Origin: a virus
Length of the DNA: 35,928 nt
Strand: one strand, 5' to 3'
IMG/VR virus record: IMGVR_UViG_3300048905_000221
Span: 1-35,928 of that record
The position numbers and the translations under genes were made by a program. Positions 28,014 through 35,928 of the stretch are shown one piece after another. Under the pieces are notes generated by a model. That model saw only the letters and a list, made by a program, of their open reading frames with translations, made no database searches and was not told the DNA's origin. Position 1 is the stretch's first letter, and every line of letters starts with the position of its first letter.

Positions 28014-31000
28014 TTAATGATCACCATCCACATTGGCTCCATACCGGCTGCGATAGGCCCGCAGCTCCGACTCGAACAGGGCGCTCGACCCTTCGGCCCA
28101 TTCGGACAGGGACTTCCCCGGCGGCTGATCGCCCACGAGGAACACCATGCGCTGCTTCACCTTGCTGCCCAGGTCGTACTTGATGAGGTGCTTGCGCATG
28201 GCGTCGCCGGCGTAGCGCGCGACCATGGGGCTGAAGGCCGTCATGGACGTGTACATCGGCTCGCCCGATCGTGCACACCACACCTTGAAGGCGTCATACA
28301 GCTGGTTGACGCTGACGGTGATGAACGGCAGCGGCAGGAAGCCTTTCGACCACTCGCGGTAGAACCGTTCGGCCGGCGCCAGGCTCTTTTCGATCAGGCT
28401 GTCCTTAGCGTCGTTGTAGATCGGCTTCGTGTGGGCGTTGAAGTCACCCATGTCCAGCTCGTACATCAGGAAGTGGTAAAGCGCCTCGACGCCGCCCTGC
28501 GCGATCTCGGCGCCGACGCTTTCATAGAACTCGCGGCCGAGTGCCGGTGGCGTCCACACGACCAAGTATCGGCGGTCCGTCTTGTCCAGAGCCAGCGGCT
28601 GCAGCTCGTTGGACAGGAACACGAAATTCATCTGGTTCTTCTCGACGTGCTCAGGCATGCCCTTTGGATTGACGATAACGGTCTCTCCCGAGATAAGGCC
28701 CTTGAGCTTGCCCTTCATCTGCTTGAGTTCCGCCCTGGTCACCACCTCGTCGGCCACCATGAACAGTTTCATGCTGGCCCAGTCGTTGAATTTCGACTCC
28801 AGCTGGTCATTGCCAATCACGTAGCCATAGTCGCCATAGATCGGCTTCACCACGCGCTCGAAGAAGAAGTTTTTGCCCGATCCCTCGTCGCCGTGCATGA
28901 TGATCGAGGTCGGCATCTTGGCGCCCGGGTTCCGCAGCGGGTACGCCAGCCAGCGCAGGATCCACGTCTCCAGCTCCTCGTCGCCGTTGCACAGGTGCGC
29001 GAGCAGCGTCCGGATCAGGAGGCAGTTGCCCTTCTTGGGCCTCATCGGCCAGCCGTTGAACAGGTTGACCGTGGCGGTAGGGCCGCTCTCGGACGGCGAT
29101 GGCGTTTCTTTCGGGTCGAACACGATGTTTTTCTTGAGCACCCACTTGCGGGCGTCGCCGCTCCAGAACTTCATCACGTCACTATTGGCCACGATCGTGC
29201 GCATGGCGGCAAGGCGCATCAGCATGCGATGCCGGCAGTCCCAGACCATGTCTTCGCCGTACACCAGGATGAAGTTCTCCAGCACGTCGTCGACCTTGTC
29301 CCAGTGATCGCGCCCGTACACCTTCTTGGGCTTTTCCTTCTCCTTCTTCTCGCCCTGGTCGCCACCGCCCCCCGCCCCCGCGCGCGAAGCGTCGCCGGCA
29401 GGGCTCCGTGCTTGCGGCGCATTCTCACCAAATCTCTCGTCAAAATTCGGCGGCACCTCCTCATTCGCGCTTGCGCGCGGCTGCTCCGCAGCGGGGGGAG
29501 CGGGGGGCGCAGGCGACTGCACGTCGGCCGCTTCCGCGTGGGGGGAAGGGGGAGAATCGATATTGCGCTGCTTCGCAGCGAAGGGGAGGACGTTCGCAGG
29601 TTGCGGCGCTGCCTCGGCCGCTTCCGCGGGACGTGAGACGGTGGCCCCGGTATTGCGCTGCTCCGCAGCGAGGGGGAGAGGGGCACCGGCTGGCGCCGGC
29701 GCCAAGATCTCGCGGTTGCCGTTCGACAGCATCGCCGACACGACTCCGACCAGTTCCATCTGCTCGAGCAGGCGCGCGGCACGGTTATAACCGATGCGAA
29801 GGTGGCGCTGCACCAGGGAGATCGAAGCCCGGCCGTGCTGCAGCACGACGGCGACTGCCTCGTCGTACAGCGGATCGGCATCGCTCTCGCCCGCGGCCGC
29901 TTCCGCGGGGGCGGCGGGGGATTCGGGATTGCGCTGCTGCGCAGCGAGGAGAGAAAGACCGAGTTGTGCCGCGACCTTGTCCAGCCCCTCCTCGATGTGG
30001 AGGTCGTTGAAATCGGTGATCTTGCGCCCTGCCCGGTCGACCGCAAACAGGGGCAACGCCACCGAAGCATTCCCAACGGCCGCGGCCGCGGCATGGCAGC
30101 TGGCCACGCCTGCGTTCGTGAACGTAGGGGTGCGAACGATGCGGCCTTTACGGATGTCCGCCTCGATGTACCGGATGCCTTGAGCGTCCGCACGCCACCT
30201 AGCCATGACTTCGACTTGCTCGCCATCGTCGGCGGTGACACGGTGCGTCGCGCTGTCGATCGGCACCTGGGCGGACACCTTGAACTCCTCCTGCAGGCGC
30301 TCGACGTAGCGCTCGGTCAGCAGGTAGTCGTCGTCGGCCAGCAGCAGCAGGTGCGCGTTCGGGTAGCGCTGGCGCAGGGCCTTGGCTACGTGGATCAGGT
30401 TGCCGGCATTGAGGGCGACGACCACAGGCAAATCGTAGCCAGGGGCGAGGGACAGGCGGGCACTTGCGCACGTCGCGTAGCCCTCACCAATCGCAATGAT
30501 CGGAGCTCCTTCCAGAGTACCGAGCACATGTGCGACGCCGATCGCGTCCATGCCCTTGTTGAGCATCTTCTCGCCGGCCGCGTCGATTTTCTGCAGACCG
30601 TGCAAATAGCCGTCGCGCACTAGAGGGATGAGCAGCCGGCCATCGAGGCCAACACGCAGGCCGTACCCTGGCACCTGCTTGCGCACCAGGTATGGATGCA
30701 CAACAGGGATTCCCTCCGCCTTGCGCCACTGGTCACGAGCGCGTCCTGCCGCCAGGCGCGCCGCCTCCTCGCGCTTTTCTTCCTCGGCCTTCTCGGCAGC
30801 GCGCTGCTGCCGCGTATACTCAGCCCGGTCCTCATCGCTCATGCTCGATGTGTCGACCTTCACCGGCACCGTGTTGCGGTTCTCGCCCTGGAAGTGTCCA
30901 AACGCGCCGGTAACGACTGTGTGGCCCGAGTCTAGCTTCATTTCGCGCAGGATGTACCAGCATTTCTTCTGCGGGCCGAAGCGCTGGTACTTACCGTTCA

Positions 31001-31076
31001 TGATCGGGTGATTGGCGGGCAGCGGAGGCAGCCCGTACTCGAGCATTTGCAGAACTACTTGTTCCTTGCTGCTCAT
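28014..31076 (-). CDS. Primase-helicase with Toprim, FtsK-gamma-like and SF3/DUF5906 domains
   Basis: A 1020-aa replication protein. The N-terminal 110 residues end in a Glu/Arg-rich coiled coil. A Toprim domain spans about 190-260 ([14 protein letters not shown] with its Glu; HLLLLADDD with its Asp residues). Residues 401-458 match the winged-helix gamma domain of FtsK ([48 protein letters not shown]). A Pro/Ala-rich linker with repeated AAxQRN follows. The C-terminal helicase has Walker A at 729-735 (GDEGSGK), Walker B around LFMVADE, and the [15 protein letters not shown] and DRRYLVVW motifs of P4-like SF3 helicases. It should prime and unwind at a nearby origin. The gamma domain is unusual in such an enzyme. 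Confidence 0.9.
29525..29957. repeat. Three ~66-bp direct repeats in primase linker, two bracketing the FtsK-gamma-like domain
   Basis: Copies at 29525-29590, 29615-29680 and 29893-29957 each start CGGCCGCTTCCGCG and, after about 25 bp, contain ATTGCGCTGCTNCGCAGCGA, which holds the palindrome CGCTGC-N3-GCAGCG. A partial copy lies near 29466-29497. The second and third bracket the gamma domain coding region (29703-29876). In protein they read AAxQRN and AEAA. Confidence 0.8.
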
Positions 31077-31489
31077 CAGTTCTCCGACTTAATGCTGCTT
31101 TTGAACGGCACACTGACGCTCGCGCAGCGGGACGGTATATCCTGGTAGTCGAAGGCGCCAGGGCGGATGGGGCGCCGGGGGCGATGACGGGCCGACAGGG
31201 GTTGGCGCGGGTGAACGTAACGCCCAGTGACGGCGTCTTCAATGACCGGCTCTGGCTCACGCTCTTCGAACAGATCGCGGCCGGCCGGCGTGATGCAGAA
31301 CAGGCCAGACTCGTTGACGTCGACGAGATTCCATCGCGTGAGCGGGCCGGTTACTTCACGGTCAAACTTTGTGGCCGACTTGCTGACGGACGTATGGTTC
31401 ATCCAGTCTTTAGTATCGAGCGGCCCAACTTGATGCAGGAACTGGAGAGCCAGGTAGGCGCGGCTACCCTCACGCGGACCGTTACGCAT
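31076..31489 (-). CDS. Hypothetical phage protein, winged-helix-like N-terminus
   Basis: A 137-aa protein. Its first 80 residues ([51 protein letters not shown]) have the layout of a small winged helix. The second half is Pro/Arg-rich and ends FDYQDIPSR followed by SVPFKSS, an end shared by related phage proteins. It overlaps the CII-like gene by 8 bp and the primase by one base. It may assist replication or regulate; not known. Confidence 0.65.
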
Positions 31490-31949
31490 CTTTGCCCCCG
31501 TCGACTGGCTGGCCGTAGACCAGGAACATCAGGCCCAGCAACTCGGAGAGGGTCTGGTGCATTCTGCGGGCATCCTCCTCGAGGACCCTGCGCTCGCGCG
31601 AGTCTATTACGTCGTCGTTCGCTATCGCCGCGGTGAAATCACGCGAGAGGTCGCCGAGCTTGGCGTACAACTCGTTGAACTTCTTCATGAGATCCTGATT
31701 CTCGTGCTCAACGCCCTCCGGCAACCGGACAAAGACACCGCCAGAGGCTTCAGCTATCGCTTCCGCATAGTGCTTCGTGTCCGACAAAAGTTGCAGAGCA
31801 AGAGAATCTTCGTCCGACAGCTTCTGATCCTTTACGCCATAGATCCGGTTGCGTAGCGCGTTTACCGACATGCCGAGATAAGGAGCAGCAACGTCCCAGC
31901 CGCCCCGGACGGCAGCGATCATCTTGAGTTTTGCTTCACGCAATTCCAT
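31482..31949 (-). CDS. CII-like phage regulatory protein (YmfL / Phage_CII_2-like)
   Basis: A 155-aa regulator. Residues 5-45 form a helix-turn-helix (KMIAAVRGGWDVAAPYLGMS then VNALRNRIYGVKDQKLSDED). The middle and end are helical (NQDLMKKFNELYAKLGDLSR, RRMHQTLSELLGLMFL), as in YmfL/CII-type phage proteins. It is the first gene after the Cro-like gene on the leftward early transcript. AGAGG five bases before the ATG at 31949 supports the start; a GTG six bases earlier is possible. Which promoter it controls is inferred. Confidence 0.75.
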   Translation of the reverse strand: MELREAKLKMIAAVRGGWDVAAPYLGMSVNALRNRIYGVKDQKLSDEDSLALQLLSDTKHYAEAIAEASGGVFVRLPEGVEHENQDLMKKFNELYAKLGDLSRDFTAAIANDDVIDSRERRVLEEDARRMHQTLSELLGLMFLVYGQPVDGGKDA

Positions 31950-32034
31950 ACACACCTCTGTTTTATTTTGGTTTTGCCAACTATTGCTAAGCTGTAAAGT
32001 GCGTGCACTTTCCTATTTGAATTGAGAGGTTCCG
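31950..32034. promoter_or_regulatory. Divergent regulatory gap with TTGC-N6-TTGC and a palindrome
   Basis: On the + strand TTGC occurs at 31974-31977 and again at 31984-31987 with six bases between, the form of a lambda CII site. The inverted repeat AAAGTGC-GT-GCACTTT follows at 31996-32011. No good -10 hexamer lies at the expected distance, so promoter function is uncertain. Confidence 0.45.
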
Positions 32035-32334
32035 ATGACGCTTATGGAGGCGGTCGTAAACAAGCACCTGGTGCACTGGCTCGACAACGGATTTGTCCGG
32101 ACGCTGGAGCCGCATGCATTCGCGCAGCTGCTGGGTGGCCGGTCCGTACTGCTCGCGTTTCAGATTGCCGGCGGGCCCGCATTGGAGCAGCCGTGCTGGA
32201 AAGTGGTTGACGCCACTGATCCGCTGACCATTGACGCTGTCGAGCGTTTCGCGCTGAGCCGGCAAATACCGCTGCACCTGCAGTCGCTGGTGCAGATGAC
32301 CTACGCATCGGCAGCCCCATCTGAATTCCCCTGA
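32035..32334 (+). CDS. Hypothetical protein on the lysogeny strand
   Basis: A 99-aa protein with GAGAGG five bases before its ATG. It contains helical stretches (MEAVVNKHLVHWLDNGFV) and a strand-rich middle (VLLAFQIAGGPALEQPCWKVV). No family is recognised. It lies opposite the presumed leftward early transcript and overlaps the Cro-like gene tail to tail by 34 bp, so it would be made only when that transcript is off or from a CII-type promoter. It may affect the lysis-lysogeny choice. Confidence 0.6.
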   Translation: MTLMEAVVNKHLVHWLDNGFVRTLEPHAFAQLLGGRSVLLAFQIAGGPALEQPCWKVVDATDPLTIDAVERFALSRQIPLHLQSLVQMTYASAAPSEFP

Positions 32335-32564
32335 GTGAATTTGGCCGTACCGCGGAGATAGGCGAAATCGACATCGGGACGCAAATCCTCGCAGCGAACA
32401 GCACCACGCGACTCGCGGTCGATGTTGATGCAGAGATGAGCGCCGAGCGGTTGCCTAGCGCTGATCGCCTTGCGGAAGTAGCGCTCGGTCGAGCCGCACG
32501 CTAAGCAGAACTCGATGCGCGCTGCTTTGTCGAGGCCGTTCAAATATGCGAGTAATTTGTTCAT
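32301..32564 (-). CDS. YdaS/Cro-like DNA-binding protein
   Basis: An 87-aa Cro-type protein. It has the YdaS pattern: MNKLLAYLNGLDKAARIEFC, the turn CGSTERYFRKAIS, then GAHLCINIDRES and AVRCEDLRPDVDFAYLRG, which is nearly invariant in this family. It should bind the operators beside its own promoter and favour lytic growth. No Shine-Dalgarno sequence precedes the ATG; the -10 hexamer ends only 10 bp upstream, so the mRNA may be leaderless. Confidence 0.88.
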   Translation of the reverse strand: MNKLLAYLNGLDKAARIEFCLACGSTERYFRKAISARQPLGAHLCINIDRESRGAVRCEDLRPDVDFAYLRGTAKFTQGNSDGAADA

Positions 32565-32651
32565 GGGAAAGCATATTACTAAACGGTAATGAGATTCGTC
32601 AACACCATTTGGTAATTTACTATTTAGTAATCGGCTAGGACAATCCGGTCT
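32565..32651. promoter_or_regulatory. Immunity region: three 14-bp operators and leftward promoter
   Basis: Operators are TTACTAAACGGTAA (32576-32589), ACACCATTTGGTAA (32602-32615) and TTACTATTTAGTAA (32617-32630), all of the form TTAC-N6-GTAA or close. On the - strand a promoter TTGACG (32597-32602), 16-bp spacer, AGTAAT (32575-32580) is covered by the first two operators. The third lies before the CI gene and may serve autoregulation. Confidence 0.8.
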
Positions 32652-33080
32652 ATGGAAATCCAAGACATCCGGCGCGCGCGCCTGGCGCAGTTGATACGAG
32701 AAAAATACGATGGCTCGCAGGCTAAGTTCGTCGAAGAAACCGGCGAAGCGCAGAGCGAAATATCCGGCCTTCTGAACAAGAAGTCGTTCGGAGAGAAGAA
32801 GGCCAGGAAGCTCGAGGTTAAATGTGATCTGCCGGCTGGATGGCTTGATCGCCTCGACGAACAACTGCCCCAGACACAACTGAGCAGGGTACGCCCAACG
32901 CTTACTGTGGTCGAAAGCGTTGAGCCCCAATGGATGGCGCTTGCATACGTGACGCAGCGCGAACTTGAGGTGCTGACGCACTACAGGCGCGCATCAGATA
33001 TCGGAAAGAGCTTAATCGAGACAGCCGCCGAATCGGCCGACAACGAAGAGTCAGGAGCGGGAACCGCTCACCAGTCGTAG
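32652..33080 (+). CDS. CI-like repressor without S24 peptidase domain
   Basis: A 142-aa lysogeny repressor. Residues 3-65 form the XRE-type domain (DIRRARLAQLIREKYDGSQA, KFVEETGEAQSEISGLLNKK, ARKLEVKCDLPAGWLD). The rest is a linker and a helix (VTQRELEVLTHYRRASDIGK), probably for dimers. The Ser-Lys self-cleaving S24 domain is absent, and the length leaves no room for it. RecA-driven cleavage is therefore unlikely. It lies divergent from the Cro-like gene, with operators between them. The Shine-Dalgarno sequence (AGGA) is far from the ATG at 11 bp. Confidence 0.85.
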   Translation: MEIQDIRRARLAQLIREKYDGSQAKFVEETGEAQSEISGLLNKKSFGEKKARKLEVKCDLPAGWLDRLDEQLPQTQLSRVRPTLTVVESVEPQWMALAYVTQRELEVLTHYRRASDIGKSLIETAAESADNEESGAGTAHQS

Positions 33081-33203
33081 CAACGGCTGCGATTGCGCCG
33101 GGTGCTTGGCCGCCATGGCCTGTGCCAACTTCAACATTTCTGCACGTGCCTCAGGGCTCATTGCCCTGAGCGCTTCTTTCATCTGTCTGAAATACTCTTC
33201 CAC
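33051..33203 (-). CDS. Possible small helical protein, tail-to-tail with CI
   Basis: A 50-codon ORF from GTG, with the pattern EEYFRQMKEALRAMSPEA, RAEMLKLAQAMAAKHP and a basic end. The first ATG is seven codons later. It overlaps the CI 3' end by 30 bp. An AGGTGG lies eight bases before the GTG. The LexA box is about 75 bp upstream, so it is one candidate SOS target. Coding status is not certain. Confidence 0.4.
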   Translation of the reverse strand: MEEYFRQMKEALRAMSPEARAEMLKLAQAMAAKHPAQSQPLLRLVSGSRS

Positions 33204-33274
33204 TCCTCACCCCACCTGTTCGACGTAGCCTGTTGGCTCACGACAACTAACCTGTTTAGTATCCTACACCAGAG

Positions 33275-33305
33275 TACTGTATAAATATACAGTTATTTCT
33301 ATAAT
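33275..33305 (+). promoter_or_regulatory. LexA (SOS) box with rightward promoter
   Basis: TACTGTATAAATATACAGTT at 33275-33294 contains a perfect CTGT-N8-ACAG and matches the E. coli consensus at 18 of 20 bases. A perfect -10, TATAAT, follows at 33300-33305; the box covers the -35 position (CTGTAT, 17-bp spacer). LexA should therefore block a rightward promoter. A leftward promoter toward the 50-codon ORF is not excluded. The DNA from 33306 to 33426 has only a weak 30-codon ORF (33351-33443). Confidence 0.85.
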
Positions 33306-33426
33306 TGCACTGTCCCGACGTGCGTCGTGTGCGCACCGACATTGGTGCTCATGGGCAACATGTGTCCGTTCTCGTGCATAGGCCCAGGATATTTTTTCGA
33401 CTTTTTAGCATCTCGGAAGCTCAATA

Positions 33427-33467
33427 TTACTAAATGGTGTTGACGCCCGTCATTACCGTTTGGTAAT
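33427..33467 (+). promoter_or_regulatory. Second CI/Cro operator pair and rightward early promoter
   Basis: Operators TTACTAAATGGTGT (33427-33440) and TTACCGTTTGGTAA (33453-33466) match those at the immunity region in inverted order. Promoter TTGACG (33440-33445), 16-bp spacer, GGTAAT (33462-33467) is covered by them. It should drive the + strand genes starting 34 bp downstream. Confidence 0.8.
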
Positions 33468-33500
33468 CTCATCGCATCGTTTCCCTGAAAGGATGTGACC

Positions 33501-33647
33501 GTGAACTTTTTTTTCGTAACGCTGCGTAAGCTTGGCTGGCAAGACCAGCATTTCTACCGCCCTGCATTCAATTCAGCGGCCGCCTATCACCTTGTTGCAG
33601 CTGAACAGGGTGACGACGTGTTCGGCATTACGGTTGTACCCGCATGA
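33501..33647 (+). CDS. Small early protein (48 aa)
   Basis: First gene of the rightward early operon. It starts at GTG with AAAGGA about eight bases upstream. The product begins with Val-Asn-Phe-Phe-Phe-Val-Thr-Leu-Arg and includes WQDQHFYRPAFNSAAAYHLV, ending FGITVVPA. It ends in an ATGA overlap with the next gene. The compact pattern suggests a real small protein. Function unknown; an antirepressor role is possible given the LexA box upstream. Confidence 0.6.
   Translation: MNFFFVTLRKLGWQDQHFYRPAFNSAAAYHLVAAEQGDDVFGITVVPA
33644..33647 (+). other. ATGA translational coupling junction
   Basis: Stop and start codons of the first two rightward early genes overlap in ATGA; a second ATGA joins the next pair at 34009-34012. 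The three genes form one operon. Confidence 0.8.
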
Positions 33648-34012
33648 GTCGCGTACCCAACTCTCGCGCTCGCACGACTGTGCTTGGGACCGGCGAGCTG
33701 AGCCGAGCGCTCGAGGATGCCCGCGACCGGGACACGTTGAACAAGTTTTGCAGTGCAAACGTCTGCACATCCGATGAGGTATCCGAAGACGGCAAGCGCC
33801 TCCATATACCGCGCGTTCTCGAGCTCATGCGTTCGCGCGGCTATCTGGTGTCCGATCCCGTCCGCGCACCTCATCAGCCGAAGCGCGGCTTCACTGCTTG
33901 GATGGTTCACATCCGCGTCGTACGTGCCGAATTCGATCTCGGCTTTTATACCCCCGATGCTGGCAAAGCCGGCCCAGTCAAGAAACCCCAAACTTCCATG
34001 GAGCACGCATGA
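33644..34012 (+). CDS. Hypothetical early protein
   Basis: A 122-aa protein in the rightward early operon. It begins MSRVPNSRARTTVLGTGELS, with a helical middle (EDARDRDTLNKFC, IPRVLELMRSRGY) and a strand-rich end (WMVHIRVVRAEFDLGFY). No family is recognised. Overlaps at both ends suggest coupled translation with the ParB-like gene. Confidence 0.6.
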   Translation: MSRVPNSRARTTVLGTGELSRALEDARDRDTLNKFCSANVCTSDEVSEDGKRLHIPRVLELMRSRGYLVSDPVRAPHQPKRGFTAWMVHIRVVRAEFDLGFYTPDAGKAGPVKKPQTSMEHA

Positions 34013-35928
34013 CCTCGGCCGCCATTGCCAATACTGAAAAAACGATCATCGTCGACGAGCTCGTCACCGAACAGGGCGTCTACGGGCATTACGAGGTCGC
34101 GCGGATGCGTCGGTCGCCGGACAACCGTAAGCGTTTCAACGAGCTGGCTCTCACCGAGCTGGCTGCAAGCATCAAGGCAATGGGCGTGGCCCAGCCGATT
34201 CTAATTCGCCCGGTCACGCCTACCCCTGCGGCGCCCGAGGAATACGAGATCGTCGCTGGCGAGCGCCGGTACCGGGCGTCGATCATCGCAGGCTTGGCGA
34301 CGATCCCTGCCATCTGCCGCAACCTGACCGACCTTGACGCAGCCAAGATTCGCATTCTCGAGAACTTGCAACGGGAAGATCCGCACCCGATGGAAGAGGC
34401 CGAAGGCTACCAGCTGCTCATGTTGCAGCACGGCTTCACGGCCGACCAGCTGGTTGACGAGGTGAAAAAGAGCCGTGCCTATATCTACGGGCGCCTGAAG
34501 CTCTGCGCGCTGACCACTGAGGTCCGAGAGCTGTTCCTGGACAATAAGTTGTCCGCCTCGACGGCACTGCTGGTAGCACGCATTCCTCTGCCCGCACTGC
34601 AGATCAAAGCGACCCAGGAAATCCTTAAGCCGGACTGGCAAGGCAACGCAATGTCCCATCGCACGGCCGCGAGCCATATCCAGGAACGGTACATGCTCAA
34701 GCTGGGCGCAGCGGTCTTTTCGCTCACCGATGCAAAGCTTCTGGCTTCGGCGGGCTCCTGCGTCAAATGCCCAAAACGTGCAGGAAATCAGCCGGAAGTT
34801 TTCGATGGAGTCGATGCGAACCTCTGCACCGACCCTGATTGCTTTGCTGAGAAGAAAGCGGCACACGGTGCGGCCCTGCTCGTTCAGGCCAACAAGAAGG
34901 GCATCCCGATACTTGAAGGTGAGGAAGGCGCCGAGGTGATGAGACGGCGTTGGAACCGCGATAGCGATCTGGTTACAGCGGACATGAGCCTGTTTTACTT
35001 CAGCCGCAATTCACCGTCGACGCAAAACAGCGGCTACGTCAAAGACTATCTGAACGAGGGCACCTTGCCTTCGGTTGCTGGCTATCGCAAAGACACCGAT
35101 GGCGTCCTCACTGCGCTTTACAAGCGCGTCGACGTACAGGAGGCGCTCGAAGCTGCGGGCGCTTGCGAAACCGCCGAGGTTTATGAAACGAGGATGCAAG
35201 AAGCGAACGATGTACCTCCGGTTACGTCGGCTAAGCAGCAGGCCGAGCAGAAAGCACGCGAAGCAAAACAGGCACTGGTCCACTGCGAAAATGTTTACCG
35301 TCTCTCGTTGTACAAACAATTGCGCGCGCGTGTGACTGCGGCCGGCTGCTTCAGCCTACCCTCCTTGCGCGAATTAACAAAGGCAGTGGTCGCCGAGCAC
35401 GACCTTGATTCGTCTTTGCACGAGCTATACAAGTCAGACGTCAGCACAGATCTCGACGGCTATATCGACGCTGCGGACGCGGGAGCGCTGCAGCTGCTCC
35501 TTATGGATGTGATCTTTGGCGGCTTGCTCGAGATCGAAACGTGGCACTTGATGAACGATGGGACCGTGGATGCTGATGATGGCTTCGCGAACGTCGTCGC
35601 GATGGCACGCCATGAGGGCATCGACGTCGATGCTATCCGAATGAAAGTCCTTGAGCCGGAAGCGCCGACGACAGAGGACAAACCAGCGACGCCGGCCGAG
35701 ACCTCGGCTGCGAATGACCAGGCAGAGGCCAACACGATCACCGATTCGGTCACGGTTCGCTATCGCCATCCGAACAACCCCGCACAGGCCTGGACTGGCC
35801 GCGGCCGCCAGCCGAAGTGGGTCAGTGAATGGGTTGCGAGTGGCAAGTCGCTGGATGCCCTGCAGGTCAACACGACACCACCACTAGAGGACCAGGTTGA
35901 ACAGGAATTAGCGGAGGCGATCCCATGA
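34009..35928 (+). CDS. ParB-like protein with H-NS-type C-terminal domain
   Basis: A 639-aa DNA-binding protein, complete at a TGA at the window edge. Residues 35-140 form the ParB/Srx domain (LTELAASIKAMGVAQPI, EIVAGERRYRASIIAG, IRILENLQREDPHPMEEAEG), followed by a KorB-like helical region (SRAYIYGRLKLC). A Cys cluster near 250 (GSCVKCPKRAG, LCTDPDCF) may bind zinc. The middle is helical. The last 60 residues carry the H-NS-type motif YRHPNNPAQAWTGRGRQPKW with SGKSLDAL. No ParA gene is seen here. It could organise phage DNA, act in partition, or silence or activate promoters. ATGA at 35925-35928 suggests the next gene overlaps. Confidence 0.88.
   Translation: MTSAAIANTEKTIIVDELVTEQGVYGHYEVARMRRSPDNRKRFNELALTELAASIKAMGVAQPILIRPVTPTPAAPEEYEIVAGERRYRASIIAGLATIPAICRNLTDLDAAKIRILENLQREDPHPMEEAEGYQLLMLQHGFTADQLVDEVKKSRAYIYGRLKLCALTTEVRELFLDNKLSASTALLVARIPLPALQIKATQEILKPDWQGNAMSHRTAASHIQERYMLKLGAAVFSLTDAKLLASAGSCVKCPKRAGNQPEVFDGVDANLCTDPDCFAEKKAAHGAALLVQANKKGIPILEGEEGAEVMRRRWNRDSDLVTADMSLFYFSRNSPSTQNSGYVKDYLNEGTLPSVAGYRKDTDGVLTALYKRVDVQEALEAAGACETAEVYETRMQEANDVPPVTSAKQQAEQKAREAKQALVHCENVYRLSLYKQLRARVTAAGCFSLPSLRELTKAVVAEHDLDSSLHELYKSDVSTDLDGYIDAADAGALQLLLMDVIFGGLLEIETWHLMNDGTVDADDGFANVVAMARHEGIDVDAIRMKVLEPEAPTTEDKPATPAETSAANDQAEANTITDSVTVRYRHPNNPAQAWTGRGRQPKWVSEWVASGKSLDALQVNTTPPLEDQVEQELAEAIP

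Follow-up and report, generated by a model that had tools for sequence, protein, structure and literature searches.

A putative SOS-controlled antirepressor gene convergent with the gene of a peptidase-free CI-like repressor in an IMG/VR virus record

Release of a phage repressor by a LexA-controlled antirepressor is an already known strategy, represented by Tum of phage 186, AntC of N15 and the Gifsy antirepressors GfoA, GftA and GfhA (PMC3121763). The IMG/VR virus record IMGVR_UViG_3300048905_000221, analysed over positions 1-35,928 (the entire 35,928-nucleotide stretch, hereafter called the window), carries tailed-phage terminase, head and tail genes and contains a cI-like repressor gene, an SOS (LexA) box and a minus-strand open reading frame (ORF) of 50 codons, hereafter called ant, which converges on cI. 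We favour, at a probability of about three in four, the interpretation that this locus is an SOS-controlled antirepressor switch, in which LexA would silence a leftward promoter and the Ant protein would disarm CI through a helical hairpin, in a SinI-like manner. The Gifsy systems resemble the window, as interpreted here, in having a short, non-cleavable repressor and a small protein that LexA controls directly and whose start codon is not ATG, but differ in that ant of the window is convergent with cI, an arrangement of which no description was found in the open-access literature.

Three further systems resemble parts of the locus. SinI and SinR of Bacillus subtilis form a heterodimer via paired hooks conserved between both proteins, after which SinR no longer binds DNA (PMC3163267; PDB 1b0n); SinI, a small two-helix protein, resembles the C-terminal two-helix hook of its repressor, and a comparable heterodimer is proposed here, although the Sin system is chromosomal and Spo0A-controlled. 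The Ant protein of the Salmonella phage SPC32H acts on the C-terminal tetramerisation domain of Rep (PMC9986798), and the helix-turn-helix (HTH) domain of Rep (PDB 5d50) is homologous to that of the window CI (hhalign 93 %, E 3.4e-7, residues 2-74; Foldseek rank 1), whereas the SPC32H ant codes for 86 amino acids, lies about 14 kb from rep and accompanies a repressor with a different C-terminal region. In the TF-smORF modules (PMC10432266) a small protein likewise inactivates CI and is encoded opposite a regulator gene, but these modules were chosen for cleavable repressors and SOS independence, whereas the input in the window is SOS.

The box TACTGTATAAATATACAGTT (33275-33294, no strand assigned) matches the E. 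coli consensus at 18 of 20 positions, whereas 1000 dinucleotide-shuffled versions of the window scored 15 at most. It is the sole exact instance of CTGTN8ACAG in the window, and when the AT-rich intergenic stretch was shuffled 5000 times, 0.5 % of the resulting sequences contained an exact instance. Relatives of the locus were gathered by a protein search with CI, the close ones having repressors 63-68 % identical to that of the window, and 13 were examined for the box: 12 viral loci (nine close ones, L030, L032 and L037) and the prophage of Massilia sp. IC2-278. The box is in the same position in all 13, though the flanks diverge. The initial annotation had reported a near-consensus box about 200 bp after the repressor gene, followed by a TATAAT; the coordinates and letters of both elements agreed, the distance from the cI stop was 194 bp, and the box is real as a predicted LexA site.

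A genome scan located Ant in Massilia, together with the box, and in Duganella, in a diverged form, and since the box motif also precedes lexA, recA, dinB, dnaE2 and an SRAP-domain gene in those genomes, it corresponds to the LexA site of the Massilia/Duganella host group. The relatives thus place the probable host of the window in this group, and the window would represent a virus of a soil bacterium.

The conserved promoter element linked to the box points to the left. A -10-like element, GTGTAGGAT (33261-33269, hexamer TAGGAT at 33261-33266), is located on the minus strand 8 nt from the box, and (G/A)TGTAnnAT is found on that strand, 8-9 nt from the box, in all 14 loci compared (the window and the 13 relatives). 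The best reading of the sequence is that this promoter leads into the minus-strand ORF at 33051-33203, that is, into ant.

The ant gene has a GTG start, with a possible ribosome site, AGGTGG, at 33212-33217, and is present in every box-bearing relative as an ORF of 50-56 codons with a conserved start codon (GTG, once TTG). Because variation is highest at codon position 3 and the median pairwise ratio of nonsynonymous to synonymous substitution rates (dN/dS) is 0.098 in the part not overlapping cI, ant is very probably a genuine coding gene. The cI and ant genes overlap tail to tail by 30 nt including both stop codons (33051-33080), and overlaps of 24-42 nt were found in 13 of the 14 pairs measured. 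If ant is indeed an antirepressor gene, others of this kind would escape annotation, being about 50 codons long, often starting with GTG and overlapping another gene.

The AlphaFold2 model of Ant is a helical hairpin (residues 2-14 and 17-33; predicted local distance difference test, pLDDT, 78). Ant had no match to a Pfam family at E ≤ 0.1 (SinI included), to PHROG or NCBIfam, or, by tblastn, to annotated phage genomes, and a Foldseek search with the model gave no meaningful match; the protein family is new, although the strategy is known. Ant was also considered, and rejected for want of matches, as a homologue of the SPC32H, Gifsy, Tum, AntC or Qtip proteins. There was no BLASTP alignment with SPC32H Ant (profile E > 2), no match of the Ant profile at E ≤ 10 in the Gifsy-1 immunity and dinI region (bases 36,600-41,600, to which that comparison was limited), and none in the phage 186 and N15 genomes (best E 0.11, none overlapping tum). 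The likeness to Tum drawn in the initial annotation therefore holds for the regulatory logic and not for the sequence, as far as the Ant profile can detect; Tum is moreover a larger protein, one half of which is DinI-like.

The cI gene (32652-33080, plus strand) codes for 142 amino acids, with an HTH domain at residues 1-66 and a predicted C-terminal helical hairpin at residues 102-133 (phrog_5736 and phrog_12107; AlphaFold2 model; structural match to SPC32H Rep over the HTH). No S24 peptidase match was obtained (PF00717, E ≤ 0.1), in keeping with the earlier description of a repressor that cannot cleave itself. The modelled tail consists of helices 102-113 and 116-133 (pLDDT 74). When distant members were added to the Ant and C-terminal domain profiles, the two aligned over 35 columns at offset 99, which brings the predicted helices of Ant and CI into coincidence. 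The P of 1.3e-4 for this alignment is optimistic because the added members were hand-picked from earlier matches. A protein of locus L153 matches both profiles. Direct similarity between Ant and CI within single genomes was significant only in L039 (p 0.018, seven tried), and was therefore not used alone. On the basis of these profiles and models, Ant is proposed to be a distant paralogue of the C-terminal hairpin of CI itself.

The repressor of L042, whose HTH is 79 % identical to that of the window CI, bears an S24 peptidase where the window CI has its C-terminal hairpin; self-cleaving and Ant-linked repressors thus differ here by the exchange of a domain. At seven loci (L163, L164, L165, L166, L167, L170 and L171) two or three adjoining tandem genes code for the same repressor C-terminal domain. 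Ant-like hairpins occur remote from a matching repressor in L148, L151, L153 and L155, some of them within longer proteins.

Among 80 viral CI relatives surveyed with the Ant profile (cut-off E < 1e-8), the matches were the 16 with a C-terminal region like that of the window CI. Neither Ant nor an SOS box was found near the long, S24-bearing repressors, L042 included; Pfam confirmed the S24 domain in 8 of 10 long relatives tested. At L147, L149 and L152, ant converges on a repressor gene with the same C-terminal domain and an HTH without detectable similarity to that of the window. As judged from these loci, Ant is linked to the repressor C-terminal hairpin and not to the DNA-binding domain. 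A search of 393 Oxalobacteraceae genomes with the CI C-terminal domain matched 24, and a convergent Ant-like ORF was present within the 3-kb locus in 14 of them. Eight of the 14 had played no part in building the Ant profile, and among these eight the match in G357 was marginal (E 0.009). Across the Burkholderiales only 5 of 399 genomes were matched, mostly weakly; the module therefore appears to occur mainly in a single family.

At several loci without an SOS box another regulator gene is divergent from ant: an Arc-like gene in L157, L160, L174, L175 and L150 (with L176 just under the cut-off), a HicB-type gene in L172 and a LysR gene in L166 and L171. The Arc-like and LysR loci resemble the TF-smORF modules (PMC10432266). 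Replacement of the box by divergent regulators suggests triggers other than DNA damage, and it appears to be the input that varies in the Ant/CI system; no input for ant was identified at the loci L147, L149, L152 and L164. We regard it as evenly balanced whether these loci together constitute an unnamed, modular family of Oxalobacteraceae prophage antirepressors, in which a C-terminal hairpin shared by many repressors that cannot be cleaved commonly has as its partner a free-standing paralogue, encoded by a gene that converges on the repressor gene and overlaps its 3' end, the sensor (LexA, Arc-like or LysR) and the DNA-binding domain are exchangeable, and the same repressor stem can bear an S24 peptidase instead. 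If so, a phage could alter its wake-up trigger with the switch unchanged, one repressor-antirepressor interface serving several triggers, and a C-terminal hairpin with a convergent hairpin ORF would be a sequence rule for finding antirepressors. In L174, L172 and L175 a second Ant-like small ORF is found upstream of the first and co-directional with it.

In the mechanism proposed, LexA bound at 33275-33294 would keep the leftward promoter silent in the lysogen, while CI would occupy the operators beside cro and ahead of the ParB operon. After DNA damage, loss of LexA would allow the leftward transcript and hence synthesis of the 50-amino-acid Ant hairpin, which would enter the CI oligomer by hairpin swap, in the fashion of SinI with SinR; CI would then leave its operators, and lytic genes would therefore start. 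Hairpin exchange is proposed by analogy with the paired hooks of SinI/SinR (PMC3163267) and the action of SPC32H Ant on a tetramerisation domain (PMC9986798). Transcripts from the SOS promoter would run into the convergent, overlapping cI gene and so probably impede its expression as well. The initial annotation had suggested that a non-cleavable repressor is induced indirectly, under LexA control, and this remains the best reading.

A number of observations weigh against this switch. The leftward -35 region is poor, and the SOS box, and with it control by LexA, is confined to the clade of the window and the distant locus L154. No Ant was detected in 10 of the 24 Oxalobacteraceae genomes with the C-terminal domain. 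Ant and the CI C-terminal domain gave no significant alignment with close-family profiles, and the homology obtained with the expanded profiles had a probability of only 54 %, which is weak. The AlphaFold2 models are of monomers, from shallow alignments, with a mean pLDDT of 74-78.

The initial annotation had instead placed the promoter to the right of the box, with the antirepressor among the rightward small ORFs. The TATAAT at 33300-33305 (plus strand) is indeed perfect, 5 nt past the box, and the relatives also retain the rightward ORFs of 50 and 122 codons, but the hexamer is absent from all 13 relatives checked and so carries no weight against an element running leftward in all 14 loci; the rightward promoter was rejected on this conservation. 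In at least six relatives (L002, L003, L005, L008, L010 and L106) a rightward terminator-like hairpin with a T-run intervenes between the box and the rightward genes, that of the window itself being weak or absent. The plus-strand 48- and 122-amino-acid ORFs, proposed as SOS-driven antirepressors, look like CI-repressed early genes, because their separate promoter (TTGACG, 33440-33445) is overlapped by CI operators, with the operator ATTACCGTTTGGTAAT (33452-33467) over its -10 region. The ORF near 33351 is unconserved. An antirepressor on the rightward side is therefore very unlikely; among the candidates listed earlier, the 50-codon ORF is possibly the minus-strand ant, and the others are not favoured.

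The convergent, overlapping genes of all relatives, from which an SOS transcript would enter cI, also fit a main effect at the RNA level, in which collision or antisense pairing lowers CI and Ant is a side product. The strong protein-level selection on Ant (dN/dS 0.10), its conserved start codon and the Ant-like proteins away from a repressor with the C-terminal domain (L148, L151, L155) argue against this, and we consider it improbable, though the foremost of the alternatives. The same linkage evidence would suit a role of Ant as a modulator or co-repressor of CI, whose expression in the SOS response tunes or restores lysogeny instead of breaking it, as hetero-oligomers may stay active. However, for a CI without a peptidase some SOS-linked inactivator is expected, and the small partners under LexA control that have been described for such repressors act as antirepressors (PMC3121763), which makes this the least probable alternative.

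The remaining features are as follows. A CI/Cro operator array with repeats of the ATTACTAAACGGTAAT type lies at 32573-32632 between cI and the leftward cro, which codes for a Cro-like YdaS-family protein (32304-32564, minus strand, PF15943 above the cut-off) and is divergent from cI. A second operator pair, which lies at 33424-33467 over the rightward early promoter, shares these repeats and is a 77 % copy of 32573-32616; the arrangement is the same in the relatives. The rightward early operon (33495-35928, plus strand) comprises a 50-codon ORF, the 122-amino-acid ORF (33644-34012) and a ParB protein (34009-35928) to which the C-terminal DNA-binding domain of H-NS is fused (PF00816, E 6e-16). 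The leftward operon includes a CII-like regulator (31482-31955, minus strand; PF06892, phrog_101). Another short CI relative, that of L048, is followed at a distance of about 1 kb (+979 from the repressor start) by an SOS box scoring 17/20. The FtsK gamma domain is the part of FtsK that reads chromosome polarity signals, and such a domain (PF09397, E 2e-24) is present in the phage primase encoded at 28014-31076 of the window.
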